From the NCBI RefSeq assembly GCF_014696715.1, contig NZ_JACJQO010000005.1:1-64000 (forward strand): DNA of 64,000 bases. Reading direction: 5' to 3'. The DNA comes from Pseudanabaena sp. FACHB-2040 (lineage in GTDB: Bacteria > Cyanobacteriota > Cyanobacteriia > Phormidesmidales > Phormidesmidaceae). The position numbers were made by a program, and so were the translations under genes. The notes below the pieces were generated by a model that saw nothing but the letters and a program-made list of their open reading frames with translations, was not told where the DNA came from and searched no databases. Positions 53,151 through 59,608 of the stretch are shown piece after piece. The stretch's first letter is position 1, and every line of letters starts with the position of its first letter.

Positions 53151-54164
53151 ATGTCTGACCTTCCTTTTACTCTGGATCAATTGCGAATTCTCAAAGCCAT
53201 TGCGGCAGAGGGTAGCTTCAAGCGGGCAGCGGATAGCCTGTACGTGTCCCAACCTGCAGTTAGCCTTCAGGTGCAGAACCTCGAGCGCCAGCTCGATGTG
53301 CCGTTGTTTGACCGGGGAGGTCGACGGGCGCAGTTGACCGAAGCAGGGCACCTGCTGCTGAGCTATGGAGACCGCATTCTCAGCCTCTGCCAGGAAACCT
53401 GTCGGGCCATCGAAGACTTGCAGAATCTGCAGGGAGGAACCTTGATTGTGGGGGCTAGCCAAACCACAGGTACCTACCTGTTGCCCCGAATGATCGGTAT
53501 GTTTCGCCAAAAATACCCTGATGTAGCGGTTCAACTGCATGTCCATTCCACCCGGCGGACGTCTTGGAGCGTAGCCAATGGTCAGGTTGATCTGGCCATT
53601 ATTGGCGGGGAGGTGCCTCCAGAACTACAAGATTCTCTAGAAATAGTTCCCTATGCGGAGGATGAACTCGCACTGATTATGCCCGTTTTTCATCCTTTGG
53701 CGATGAATGAGGTGATTCAGCGCGAAGACCTCTACAAGCTGCAGTTTATTGCCCTAGATTCTCAGTCTACGATTCGCAAGGTCATCGATCAGGTGCTGAC
53801 CCGCTGCGGCATTGAGACCCGTCGCCTGAAGGTAGAGATGGAGCTGAACTCAATTGAGGCAATTAAGACGGCGGTGCAGTCGGGGTTGGGTGTGGCCTTT
53901 GTGTCTAACTCGGCGATTGAAAAAGAGCTGCAGATGGGCGTTTTGCACCGAGCCAAGATTGACTCTGTAGTGGTGAACCGAGCGCTATCGGTAATTTTTA
54001 ATCCCAACCGCTATCGCTCAAAGGCGGCTGAGGCCTTTACCCACGAAATTTTGCCCCAGTTCACCAATCAAACTTTAGAATTTAGAAAATCTAACGGCGA
54101 AAAGAATGGGGCAAAGCCAGAGATTGTTCGGCCTGCAATAGAAGTTCCTCCAACCGGCTCCTGA
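53151..54164 (+). CDS. rbcR: LysR-type regulator RbcR
   Basis: A 337-residue LysR regulator. The HTH lies at residues 5-65 ([42 protein letters not shown]) and the effector domain at about 95-305. The sequence closely resembles RbcR/Ycf30, which controls RuBisCO genes in cyanobacteria and plastids, and differs from the NdhR/CmpR style. Sensing of a Calvin-cycle metabolite is known for relatives. No rbc gene is in the window. A hydrophilic tail of about 30 residues ends the protein. Confidence 0.85.
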
Positions 54165-54186
54165 TGTTTTGAAGTGACAGTCATTC

Positions 54187-55614
54187 ATGGAGATTTTCTG
54201 CACTCGACCCAGCTGTCCTCGACCGGTCAATGTTTTTCCGGACTTAGACAGTGGCAATACGATTAAAACAGTGCAGCAAAAGTTTTGTATGACCTGTGGA
54301 ATGCCGCTGCTTTTGGGCAGCCGCTACCTGCCTCAAAAGCTTCTTGGTCAGGGTGGATTTGGCACTGCGTTTTTGGCCCGCGATCGCTACACGCCAACGC
54401 TGCGCTCCTGTGTGGTGAAGCTGTTTCAGCCAACCGGGCAGCTCAGTCCTGCTCAGCTACAGACGGCTCAAGACCTGTTTGAGCGTGAGGCAGCGGTACT
54501 GGAGGAATTGGGAAATCACCACCCTCAAATTCCAAATCTGTATGCGTTTTTTTCGCTGCAGGTGTCGGGGCTGCGGCCAGGAGTTCAGGAGGAATATTTT
54601 TACCTAGTTCAAGAGTTTATTGACGGCCAGAATCTAGAGCAATTGCTAGAGCAGAATGGGGCTTTTACCGAGGCTGAAGTGCAGGAAATTTTGGTTTCAC
54701 TGCTTAAGGTGCTGGAGTTTGTTCATCAGCACGGCACAATTCACCGAGATATTAAGCCTTCAAACATCATGCGCGATCGCAACCAGCGACTCTACCTACT
54801 CGACTTCGGTGCAGTCAAACAGGTGGCTAAAGCAGGCAGCCCTAATCTCAAGTCAACCGGCATTTACTCAATGGGCTATGCGCCGCCTGAGCAAATGGCG
54901 GGGGGAGCCGTCTATCCAGCAACCGATCTCTATGCGCTAGCCGTGACCTGTATCTCTTTGCTGACCGGCAAACCTCCTGAAGACCTCTATGATGGCTATC
55001 AAAATAGCTGGAAGTGGGAGCAGTATGCCACTGTAAAGCCAGTTTTGGCCCAGGTGCTTAATCGGCTGCTGGCCCCGGCGCCTCAGCAGCGCTACGACTC
55101 TGCAGCAGAGGCGCTGGCTGCTTTAGCGGGTCCTATTAGCCAGCCAGCCCCAATGCCCTCTCCGACGCCCCCGCCAACGCCGCTGCAGCCAGCCCCATCT
55201 AGTTCTCCACCGGCTGTCGCCAAAGTGCCTGGGACTCCGGCTTCGGCCCCGGCGGCCCAACCTTTTTCCCTGGCCCAGTTTTTAGGAGGGGCGCTATTTA
55301 CAGGGTTTGAGGGGGGGCTGCTGGCCATTGCCAGCCTTAGCCTGCTGGGCACCACTTTGATGGGCAGTGGAGCCTGGTTGCTGCTCCTAGGCGTGCTGGT
55401 GCTGCTGCAGTTAAAACGCACGATTGAGCGGCTTGACTTGGTCATTATTGCAGCGGTAACGCTGGCAATGGTGCTGCTGTTTCCCCCACTGCGCAGCGTG
55501 CTGGCGGGATTTAGCACGCCGCTACAGTGGGTTCTGGCTTTAGCTATTATGGCTGGGCTGATGGCGGCTGCGATCGCAACTCTTTTCCGCCTGCTCTTTC
55601 GCCTATTTTCCTAG
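54187..55614 (+). CDS. serine/threonine kinase with N-terminal zinc-ribbon-like motif
   Basis: A 475-residue kinase. CTRPSCPRP at about 5-13 and CMTCGMPL near 35-42 form a four-cysteine ribbon. The kinase domain spans about 45-315 with LLGQGGFGTAFLARD, VVKLF, HRDIKPSNIM and LLDFGAVK. A Pro-rich linker (about 318-350) and three hydrophobic segments follow (about 365-475). This layout is common in cyanobacterial kinases. It starts 22 bases after rbcR and may be co-transcribed. It differs from the kinase at 19005-20528 in having the membrane part at the C-terminus and no repeat tail. Confidence 0.9.
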   Translation: MEIFCTRPSCPRPVNVFPDLDSGNTIKTVQQKFCMTCGMPLLLGSRYLPQKLLGQGGFGTAFLARDRYTPTLRSCVVKLFQPTGQLSPAQLQTAQDLFEREAAVLEELGNHHPQIPNLYAFFSLQVSGLRPGVQEEYFYLVQEFIDGQNLEQLLEQNGAFTEAEVQEILVSLLKVLEFVHQHGTIHRDIKPSNIMRDRNQRLYLLDFGAVKQVAKAGSPNLKSTGIYSMGYAPPEQMAGGAVYPATDLYALAVTCISLLTGKPPEDLYDGYQNSWKWEQYATVKPVLAQVLNRLLAPAPQQRYDSAAEALAALAGPISQPAPMPSPTPPPTPLQPAPSSSPPAVAKVPGTPASAPAAQPFSLAQFLGGALFTGFEGGLLAIASLSLLGTTLMGSGAWLLLLGVLVLLQLKRTIERLDLVIIAAVTLAMVLLFPPLRSVLAGFSTPLQWVLALAIMAGLMAAAIATLFRLLFRLFS

Positions 55615-55618
55615 GGGA

Positions 55619-56326
55619 CTAAGCCTGCTGCCGCGATATATGAGTTGCAGGAACCGCCAAATAGCCCTCGCCATGGACCTGAATCAGCCCTCGCTGGCGC
55701 AGCTTACCCATTAACCGAGTGACCGTTACCCGAGTTGAGCCGATAGCGCTGCCAATTTGGGCATGGGTTAGCGTCCAGGGCAAATAGTAGCCATCCTCAT
55801 AAGACTCACCAAACTCCTCGATCAGCAGCGTTAAGAAACCCAGCAGCCGATCAATGGTGCGGCGCTGGCCCAAAGTACTTAGCCAAAGCAACTTACGCTG
55901 GTGCTGATAGCGAAAGGCATCTAAAACTTCGCGGCGGAAATGGGGCCAATTCTCCAAGTCATGCCAGTACAGCCAAATCACTGTAGTCTGATCGATATGG
56001 GCAAACCCCTGCAGGGAAAAGGGAGACTGGGCCACAATTTCAAAGGGCTGCCCCGCTCCTACAAAGCCCAAAAAAGCTTCTTCGCTAGGGGCCAACGCCA
56101 GTCTAGACTGCACGCCTTTACCTGGCTTGCCGCTGGCGCTGAGTTGGGCACTGCCCACGAGGCGCACGGCCCCCCGCTGCACTAGATACAAAAGCCCTGG
56201 GCGAGCCGGAATGCGCTCATCCTTATTAAAAGTCCTCGCCCGATAATGTTCCTGGGCCCAGTCAGTAATGCGCTGCCAGGTTAGGAAAGGGCGAGCGTTG
56301 CTGTCGGGTTGCGATGATGAAAACAT
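55619..56326 (-). CDS. Crp/Fnr-family transcription regulator
   Basis: A 235-residue regulator. The N-terminal cyclic-nucleotide-binding-like fold lacks a clear cAMP-binding set (SAQLSASGKPGKGV...). The C-terminal winged HTH is LTHAQIGSAIGSTRVTVTRLMGKLRQRGLI, similar to NtcA (TRVTVTRLLG). Target genes are unknown; it could be a redox or nitrogen-type regulator, but NtcA itself has a different start. It is convergent with the kinase gene, with 4 bases between stops. Confidence 0.85.
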   Translation of the reverse strand: MFSSSQPDSNARPFLTWQRITDWAQEHYRARTFNKDERIPARPGLLYLVQRGAVRLVGSAQLSASGKPGKGVQSRLALAPSEEAFLGFVGAGQPFEIVAQSPFSLQGFAHIDQTTVIWLYWHDLENWPHFRREVLDAFRYQHQRKLLWLSTLGQRRTIDRLLGFLTLLIEEFGESYEDGYYLPWTLTHAQIGSAIGSTRVTVTRLMGKLRQRGLIQVHGEGYLAVPATHISRQQA

Positions 56327-56684
56327 AGCTGAGAACGCGGAGCGATAACTGCAAAGTTAGGAAGAACTGAGGCCAGGTATCATGGACTACCCTGTGAGAT
56401 GACGATGATCCAAGGAACTGCAGTCATGCGGCTGAGAAACTCACTCACCGCTTCGAGAGCACTCTGGCACGAGATAAATGCCCTAGGGCAGCGCCAAGCG
56501 TCATTTAGCAAGCGAAGACAGCCTAAATTCGAGATTTAGCCCCGCAGACCCCTTAATACTAAAACATGACTCCGTGCTTTTTCCCCTAAATCAAATCTTT
56601 CTGGGCAAAGATTAGACCGGAAGATGCACAATTCGTATCCGTACAGGTTGGTCTGCCCTCCCTAAGGATCCCCACAATGGAGGC
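56327..56684. other. intergenic region
   Basis: About 360 bases without a supported gene. CTAAAT/ATTTAG at about 56522-56540 is a small hairpin. The promoters of the divergent Crp-type gene and the ArgRS-like gene must lie here. Confidence 0.35.
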
Positions 56685-57569
56685 GTGACTAAGCCTAAAA
56701 CTCCATTCAAAATGCCATATCTCTCTATCAAAGCAGTGTTACAAAAGTCACTGAACAGTGTGTTTTACCAGGTTGCCTCCCAATGGTCGGAAATCCAGCC
56801 TAATCAGCTAGACTGCTCTCAATATTTGCCGGTTACGCTGCACCTGCGGCGGCAGCCTTTTCCCCTTGAATATGTTTCCCCGCTGCCCCTTCAGCTAGCA
56901 GCAATCTTAAAGCAGCCCATTCAAGAGATGACTTCATTGGTTATTGAGGGGGTTATTGAGGGCTTGCAGGGGGAATCAGTCCTGGGCTCAGATACTCCAT
57001 CCTCACTAGAGCTTTCTATTATGCAAAGGATCACCCTCTTGCCCTCTGCCTCGGGGCAGCTGGGGCTACAGCTTGATCGCGCCGCGCTGATGCTTTGGTT
57101 AAACCTCCTCGTCGCCTTGCCCTGGCCAGAGACACAAGCAGCCTATCCACCAGCGCAGGTCTCAGCAGTCGGGCTATCTCCCTTAAGTGAGCGGCTGCAC
57201 CTCTCTCCCCTGGCCCTAATTCAACACACCCATGCCCGTTGCTTGGGTCTGGCGACTGAACTTCCTAGCAGCAGTGCGAGTCTTACAGAGACCAAGGCAG
57301 CGCCTACCCCAGAGACAGAATCTAGTGCCACAGCAACAGTGATTTGGGCTTTGGCAGATTTAGTTGATGCGCTGGCCGCAGCCGGGGAGTCGGTGGCTCT
57401 ACTGCAGCGGGGCTGTTTTTTAAGCGAGGCAGTGTATGAGTGGCTCAAGCCTTTCTACCAAGAGAGGACAGCAAATCCGGCTTTGGCCAGCCTGATCCTG
57501 CAGGCAGTTCAACAGACGCTACAGCATTTGCTACAGCAGCTAGGCCATTCTGCCCCTGGGGCTGTATGA
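56685..57569 (+). CDS. ArgRS-like protein lacking the catalytic domain (DALR domain)
   Basis: A 294-residue protein. Residues about 10-90 (YVSPLPLQLAAILKQPIQEMTSLVIEGV) resemble the arginyl-tRNA synthetase N-terminal additional domain. Residues about 180-290 resemble the DALR anticodon-binding domain, with the ArgRS-like signature LIQHTHARCLGL and an all-helical end (LSEAVYEWLKPFYQERTANPALASLIL...). The class-I catalytic Rossmann domain with HIGH/KMSK is absent, so it cannot charge tRNA on its own. It may bind tRNA-Arg or be a regulatory fragment. The GTG start is very close to GGAGG; ATG 56712 is an alternative. Confidence 0.72.
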   Translation: MTKPKTPFKMPYLSIKAVLQKSLNSVFYQVASQWSEIQPNQLDCSQYLPVTLHLRRQPFPLEYVSPLPLQLAAILKQPIQEMTSLVIEGVIEGLQGESVLGSDTPSSLELSIMQRITLLPSASGQLGLQLDRAALMLWLNLLVALPWPETQAAYPPAQVSAVGLSPLSERLHLSPLALIQHTHARCLGLATELPSSSASLTETKAAPTPETESSATATVIWALADLVDALAAAGESVALLQRGCFLSEAVYEWLKPFYQERTANPALASLILQAVQQTLQHLLQQLGHSAPGAV

Positions 57570-57681: not shown

Positions 57682-57722
57682 AGGTACCGAGACGAAACAC
57701 GGCCAGTCGTCGGTACCTTTTC
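57682..57722 (+). terminator. rho-independent terminator
   Basis: AGGTACCGA pairs with TCGGTACCT around a loop and is followed by TTTTCTG. It lies about 110 bases after the ArgRS-like gene. Confidence 0.65.
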
Positions 57723-57778
57723 TGATTTTTGGCATTTATTGCTCTCTGATCTGATTTTTGGCATTTATTGCTCTCTGA
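57722..57778. repeat. 29-bp tandem duplication
   Basis: CTGATTTTTGGCATTTATTG plus GCTCTCTGA-type sequence occurs twice in a row (57722-57750 and 57751-57778). It looks like a recent slippage duplication next to the terminator. No gene is seen in the region to 57929. Confidence 0.8.
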
Positions 57779-58855: not shown

Positions 58856-59578
58856 TTAACCCTTGCCCAGAAGCCGGTAGCGCACTCCCTCAGCAATCTT
58901 TTGCCCCAGATACTCTGGTATCAGGCTCTCATTAGGTCCCAAAAGATAAAGAATTAGCCGGGTGCGTCCCCGCCAAACCAACAGGTTAGCGTTGACAACT
59001 AAAAGATCCTCCTGCCAAATGGCGTACATGACTTTGTAAAATAGCCCTGGCTGGTTATCGGCCTCGATCAGCAGGGCCGGCAGGTGAAAAACGGGATCGA
59101 CGTAAAATTCAGTTTCTACCTGCTCTAGTCCGGCATCGAGATTAAATTCGACCGTCAGCATCTCCTCAACCTCAAAGCGGCCCGCCAGCGCTTCACGGAC
59201 GGCGCGGCAGACGTTGTCAGCGGTTTGTCCGGTGAGGGCTTTGCCGCCGCGAGAGACAACTAGCTTGATGAACACCAGCATGGGGGGATAGATCTGACCA
59301 TAAAGGCTGAGGTTGTGGATGGTCAGACCATAGGCAGCCAACACGCCAAAGATATCGCTAAGCAGGAAGGACTGGTTGCGGTAGGCAAAGTGGAGGGCGC
59401 TACGGTTGCCCTCGGGCTTGATTTCGATGACTGCTTTCTTGCTCTTATAGAGCTGATAGGCCAGGCGCAGGTTTTGGAGCTGGATCTCGCTGCTCACAAA
59501 TTGCTCATAAAATTGGGGAAACGCCCGGTTGAAGCGCTTCAGTAGCTCAATGGTCGAAGATTTTAGGCCAGCAGTCAT
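58856..59578 (-). CDS. double-ACT-domain-like protein
   Basis: A 240-residue protein. The first ACT-like segment is FAYRNQSFLLSDIFGVLAAYGLTIHNLSLYGQ at about 63-94, and the second ALLIEADNQPGLFYKVMYAIWQEDLLVVNANLLVWRGRTRLIL at about 173-215. Both have the beta-alpha-beta pattern that in GlnD, amino-acid kinases and ACR proteins binds amino acids. No enzyme domain is attached. It may sense an amino acid or regulate a partner. ATG 59578 is chosen; GTG 59608 would add ten residues. Confidence 0.65.
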   Translation of the reverse strand: MTAGLKSSTIELLKRFNRAFPQFYEQFVSSEIQLQNLRLAYQLYKSKKAVIEIKPEGNRSALHFAYRNQSFLLSDIFGVLAAYGLTIHNLSLYGQIYPPMLVFIKLVVSRGGKALTGQTADNVCRAVREALAGRFEVEEMLTVEFNLDAGLEQVETEFYVDPVFHLPALLIEADNQPGLFYKVMYAIWQEDLLVVNANLLVWRGRTRLILYLLGPNESLIPEYLGQKIAEGVRYRLLGKG

Positions 59579-59608
59579 TGTCGGGGCAAGGAACTCTATG
59601 GACGTCAC

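Follow-up and report, generated by a model that had tools for sequence, protein, structure and literature searches.

A stand-alone family of core-less arginyl-tRNA synthetase relatives in Cyanobacteriia, encoded beside a divergent Crp/NtcA-like regulator

In the window (the whole stretch of 64,000 nucleotides of Pseudanabaena sp. FACHB-2040 DNA that was analyzed), an ORF of 294 aa with a GTG start (56685-57569, + strand) encodes a protein that joins the N-terminal and the DALR domains of arginyl-tRNA synthetase (ArgRS) and lacks the catalytic core. The protein is a member of a cyanobacterial family of stand-alone proteins of ~260-370 aa, which evolves fast and has a Crp/NtcA-like regulator as divergent neighbor. 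The reading that we prefer, to which we give a probability of about one half, is that these proteins are relics of a type-B ArgRS kept, without the core, as non-catalytic binding proteins in a regulatory unit with Crp. The features considered are the following.

56685..57569, + strand: core-less ArgRS-derived stand-alone protein, with a likely real start at ATG 56712
56718..57116, + strand: ArgRS N-terminal (Add1-like) domain, residues 12-144 (from hhalign, the structure match to 3gdz_D and residue mapping)
57177..57566, + strand: DALR anticodon-binding-type domain, residues 165-294 (from profile, structure and residue mapping)
56327..56684, no strand: shared intergenic region with one GTAN8TAC (GTATCATGGACTAC, GTA at about 56377)
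55619..56326, - strand: Crp/NtcA-like regulator, divergent from the ArgRS-relic gene (from synteny and alignment)
53151-55614, + strand: LysR gene and Ser/Thr kinase beside crp, on the other side from the ArgRS-relic gene (from the neighborhood)

Taken alone, the window protein has no over-threshold match in Pfam or NCBIfam and no sequence match in PDB, and a single-sequence scan of the genome contigs found no relative, results that we attribute to the low sensitivity of single-sequence searches. The curated cut-off of DALR_1 (PF05746) is not reached, though relatives of the protein do match this domain, and its DALR_1 membership is through descent and not by direct match. One phmmer candidate, a cysteine synthase ORF (L059:4214-5179), was dropped as a chance match. 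The family was reached by weak matches and DALR_1 matches in related genomes, which led to ORFs of ~260-330 aa. Thirteen of these relatives (alignment A1) align along their whole length and have 14 to 24% identity with the window protein; a larger alignment (A3) has 52 rows. A profile of A1-type relatives recovers the window ORF together with members across the class Cyanobacteriia. Profile matches at E 0.01 are found in 227 of 291 genomes, a count that includes matches inside ArgRS itself, and 137 genomes, chosen by frame length, were taken as holding listed stand-alone copies. Intact frames of the family occur in over a hundred genomes. Members mostly start with a motif like M-x-x-L/F-S-L/F-K, and the first such start in the window protein is MPYLSIK, at ATG 56712. 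This motif and the extent of the conserved region make ATG 56712 the likely real start; residues 1-10 have low confidence in the AlphaFold2 model.

Downstream of the gene, a terminator-like palindrome was spotted by eye at 57682-57722 on the + strand (GGTACCGA ... TCGGTACC, then TTTT), with a loop longer than the scan used allows. A perfect tandem duplication of 29 bp lies at 57721-57778.

The first-pass annotation had described ArgRS-like N-terminal and DALR domains around a missing HIGH/KMSK catalytic core, and both statements hold. Within A1, DALR_1 is matched by 8 of the 13 members (best E 9.7e-12) and Arg_tRNA_synt_N by 4 of 13 (best E 1.3e-9), with E-values up to 1 accepted. In A3, 27 of 52 members match DALR_1 (PF05746) at E 0.001, and none of the 52 matches a synthetase catalytic Pfam domain at the same threshold. 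The profile-profile comparison by hhalign with 17 cyanobacterial ArgRS gave two local matches in the correct order, one per end: the N-terminus of the family falls on ArgRS columns 53-116 (E 2.9e-4, or 8.8e-5 with A1) and the C-terminus on columns 482-595 (E 9.5e-7), with no match between the two blocks, so that the catalytic core is skipped. The class I core with its HIGH and KMSK-type motifs is absent, and 294 aa are too short for it. DALR-type profile matches are also found inside ArgRS of other classes, down to E 5.8e-21.

The structure prediction agrees with this architecture. The AlphaFold2 model of the window protein (from the 52 rows of A3) is compact and confident, with pLDDT 86.8 and pTM 0.88. 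It aligns with the whole Thermus ArgRS 1iq0 (Z 16.7, 230 residues, rmsd 3.9 A) at both ends, model residues 14..294 against chain residues 1..592, which excludes an unrelated fold. Residues 12..144 align with the isolated ArgRS N-domain 3gdz_D (Z 10.2, 99 residues); with the N-terminal hhalign block, this excludes a similarity limited to the DALR part. ArgRS entries lead the structure ranking, followed by DALR-bearing GlyRS at about 9 and by other folds, none of which exceeds about 7. Foldseek with the same model returned weak E-values only, yet ArgRS made up 4 of the 5 best matches, and VIA-align resolved this. Residue by residue, the N-domain carries YVSPLPLQLA (Y63; the family motif is YxSAIALxLA) and SGQLGLQL at the GFIN position of ArgRS, the DALR signature IQHTHARC occupies residues 179-186, and the C-terminal LGHSAPGAV lies at the LGISAPExM position. 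The window protein thus shows all that defines the stand-alone ArgRS-relic family: both domains without the core, the ARC(C) motif and the divergent Crp neighbor. A full-length argS elsewhere in the genome, which the first-pass annotation had proposed to look for, does exist (G000:C17), as a 586-aa frame with DALR_1 at E 3.6e-36 and a KEMHVGH motif.

Which ArgRS the family comes from depends on two very different types present in cyanobacteria, which are 25% identical (L203-L207, L217, L218). Type A is the usual cyanobacterial ArgRS, ends in LERM or similar and has no KMSK by pattern. Type B has KMSKR, its C-terminus is mostly SAPESM or PRESM, and it is 38% identical to the ArgRS of non-photosynthetic classes. 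Matches of the family profile to type A have E 1e-6 to 1e-15; those to type B of cyanobacteria have E 1e-28 to 1e-32 and include both domains. The start of the DALR domain points the same way: it reads [QH]xxHARCCSLL in the family and HARCCSILRK or similar in cyanobacterial type B (7 of 7), against VRVRGIS in type A and ARICS or ARACS in other classes, so that ARCC is common to all seven type-B sequences and most of the family, and is found neither in type A nor in other classes. In the tree, the family and cyanobacterial type B fall on one side with support 95/93. The AU test rejects neither a grouping with type A (p 0.22) nor one with other classes (p 0.29), and for this reason and because of the long branches we grade descent from type B as probable. 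Type B would be the older type, kept as sole ArgRS in a few lineages, and an origin from type A is disfavored. All 14 genomes tested from three groups (f5, f13 and f29) have type B as their sole ArgRS, and none has a stand-alone copy. The type-B genomes probably include Gloeobacter violaceus PCC 7421 and the Synechococcus JA strains, and so what appear to be the deepest cyanobacterial branches. In non-photosynthetic classes, almost all listed profile matches are in frames of ArgRS length; none of them resembles a stand-alone copy, and one frame of 161 aa is cut off by the contig start.

The residues that read tRNA-Arg have a different history from the fold. In E. coli ArgRS, the residues F36, Q40, A78 and N84 hold the identity base A20 of tRNA-Arg and F82 stacks on this base; N84/N79 is central (PMC8975779). 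At the positions of F36, Q40, A78, F82 and N84, the window protein has Q, V, S, Q and G, so that all five residues of the A20-reading pocket are changed. The Asn of the N84 position is absent from all 52 family members and invariant in 24 of 24 cyanobacterial ArgRS of types A and B; type A keeps all five residues invariant, and type B keeps the Asn. Most family members have Trp in place of the pocket Phe, and none of the aligned sequences retains three of the five residues. The C-terminal Met of ArgRS is replaced by Leu in 41 of 52 members, while most members retain HARC where the DALR domain starts. The family proteins have a net charge close to zero or below it, which says little because the ends of ArgRS are similar. 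The ArgRS fold has persisted while the identity readout decayed, and canonical tRNA-Arg recognition is not to be assumed.

These changes bear directly on the binding of tRNA-Arg without charging proposed in the first-pass annotation, which in its canonical form finds no support. A regulator that senses the arginine or nitrogen status by holding (uncharged) tRNA-Arg in the geometry of ArgRS could still be imagined from the HARC signature and from the retention of both tRNA-touching domains, which align jointly with the whole ArgRS over the 230 residues given above; the lost pocket, the missing Asn and the Met to Leu change make it an unlikely reading. An accessory of the housekeeping type-A ArgRS, or of its complex with Arg-tRNA, that tunes charging in trans is far less credible. 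Types A and B share only ~25% identity, gene linkage to argS is not seen, and bacterial ArgRS is usually monomeric. What speaks for such an accessory is the shared ancestry of the domains and the existence of aminoacyl-tRNA synthetase paralogues that act on their parent enzymes (PMC9437257).

The rate of evolution was compared with that of the neighboring regulator. In pairwise comparisons, dN/dS lies at 0.20-0.42 in the family and at 0.01-0.04 in Crp, about a tenfold difference. Purifying selection acts on the family, and these values indicate a functional protein that changes fast, either weakly constrained or adapting. A remnant in decay, wholly or nearly without function, would explain the very fast evolution, the loss of the catalytic core and identity residues, and the clean loss of the gene in Nodosilinea-like loci, where the neighbors are in place. 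We consider it improbable, because dN/dS is below 0.45 in every tested pair, frames are intact across so many genomes, the model is compact and confident, and the gene has a fixed place beside Crp; selection and fixed context take weight from a pure relic. A chance ORF or an annotation artefact is ruled out by profile homology, structure, synteny and dN/dS.

The Crp/NtcA-like regulator is the sole recurrent neighbor found for the family gene. It is 75 to 81% identical to the window copy across 10 aligned loci and divergent from the family gene in 10 of the 13 loci of the initial set. The Crp gene was used to collect 80 named loci, and in 53 of these a family member (E 1e-5) lies upstream of crp on the opposite strand. 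The pairing is also present in named Leptolyngbyaceae, Leptolyngbya PCC 6406 (L118) among them, and at other loci. In the 291 sampled genomes of the class, both genes were found in 105 of those parsed, and they are divergent neighbors in 101 of these 105; of the four exceptions, three have the two genes on separate contigs and the fourth is a genuine separation. In 32 genomes the family is present and this Crp absent, in 43 the reverse holds, and therefore neither gene strictly requires the other. A K+ channel gene and queA were considered as partners and rejected, since the arrangement (family gene after the K+ channel, beside queA) belongs to one Crp-less group only and does not recur elsewhere. 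The regulator scores 51 bits as NtcA (cut-off 245) and 88 as PtrA (cut-off 300) and is neither of them, but it has the same recognition helix, IGSTRVTVTRL, as the NtcA of this genome. In the part of the literature covered, we found no description of this Crp-family regulator.

On the other side of crp, the LysR gene looks like rbcR, judging from its sequence, and the Ser/Thr kinase has a 4-Cys prefix. In the 80 loci, the kinase is near crp in 27 and LysR in 40. The Nodosilinea-like loci retain the order RbcR-Crp-alpha/beta hydrolase with the family gene missing, and a search of the gaps for a remnant of it found none. A 250-aa ORF with no Pfam match (58856-59608, - strand) adjoins the alpha/beta hydrolase and has ~89% identity in Nodosilinea-like loci.

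The conserved pairing, absent from the first-pass annotation, favors the regulator that had been suggested there, and only its specific ligand, tRNA-Arg, loses weight with the A20 pocket. It also raises the question of a PipX-like protein co-factor of the divergent Crp regulator, for which the ArgRS folds would be a protein-binding scaffold only. The nearly constant divergent arrangement with the only recurrent neighbor, and a fold retained while the RNA-specific residues decayed, would suit such a co-factor. A regulator held at 75-81% identity while its partner drifts to ~20% is unlike a tight co-evolving interface, and each gene is also found alone in the genomes counted above. We hold this co-factor to be rather unlikely, slightly less so than the sensor of tRNA-Arg.

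The intergenic region adds a link to nitrogen control on the crp side. GTAN8TAC is the NtcA consensus (PMC3898017). Of 59 non-redundant intergenic regions, 22 contain it, whereas dinucleotide shuffles give 3.2 +/- 1.8 and other spacings of the GTA/TAC motif give 2-6. Most of these sites have a TAN3T box 21-22 nt later, reading towards crp, which would correspond to the layout of NtcA-activated promoters (class II spacing) at the crp promoter. In loci with crp alone, the motif is rarer and scattered (5 of 24). These observations point to NtcA-type control of crp, whether exerted by NtcA or by the product of crp. A site shared by both genes was considered and rejected, since the spacing to TAN3T mostly fits the crp promoter and not that of the ArgRS-relic gene. 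The single GTAN8TAC of the window is without the usual -10 spacing and may be a chance occurrence.

We suggest, for the type-B relic kept beside Crp, the following course. An ancestral type-B ArgRS would have lost the whole catalytic core, with the N-terminal tRNA-elbow domain and the DALR domain kept, while type A (here the gene at G000:C17) would do the charging in most cyanobacteria. The relic would then be a binding protein, with an RNA arm or a protein partner on the DALR/N-domain scaffold, and would form one regulatory unit with the divergent Crp/NtcA-like regulator, in a locus whose setting may be carbon/nitrogen, as the RbcR-like gene and the Ser/Thr kinase are often present. The binding or regulatory accessory role, the ligand and the pathway shared with Crp are what we infer from these comparisons; candidate ligands would be the anticodon arm bound through DALR, another RNA or a protein. 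A more specific version, in which a displaced ArgRS was cut to its two binding domains and recruited beside Crp to link translation-derived signals to carbon/nitrogen control, is a tentative proposal. If this recruitment is true, an essential enzyme gave way to a second one and its parts were exapted, in a locus tied to cyanobacterial RuBisCO/nitrogen regulators. In any case, an anonymous 'DALR-domain' or unannotated ORF can now be placed in a defined family, for which we give a probable origin, a recurrent regulatory neighbor and a testable loss of identity residues, and the family gives a handle on an apparently uncharacterized and highly conserved Crp-family regulator.

That synthetase paralogues can take on new roles is well known, and core-less ArgS-related proteins are already known by annotation (NrtL, DALR-domain proteins). 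The literature on DALR in cyanobacteria, NrtL and core-less ArgRS paralogues, covered in part, gave no description of the family. Within this partial coverage, we also found no earlier account of the pairing with Crp, of the probable origin in a displaced ArgRS or of the identity-residue loss.

Among known systems, cyanobacterial type-B ArgRS is the closest, with the N-domain, DALR, ARCC at the DALR start, a C-terminal APxx and the best profile scores; the family differs from it by the absence of the ~330-residue catalytic core, of the A20-reading Asn and usually of the final Met. The NCBIfam model NF045898, 'ArgS-related anticodon-binding protein NrtL', is ArgS-related like the family and has 327 positions. 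Two family members tested against it match one end each (the N-terminal part in one, the C-terminal part in the other) with 29-29.5 bits, far from the cut-off of 340 bits, and there is no match for the window ORF and none over threshold in the genome. We found no paper describing NrtL. The annotation 'DALR anticodon-binding domain-containing' (PF05746, DALR_1) is silent on the N-domain and on the Crp pairing. HisZ keeps the fold of the catalytic domain and acts on HisG, and the relic family differs from it by the deleted catalytic domain. Like the relic family, HisZ is synthetase-derived and has lost aminoacylation; it has a new regulatory role (PMC9437257), which in the relic family is putative.
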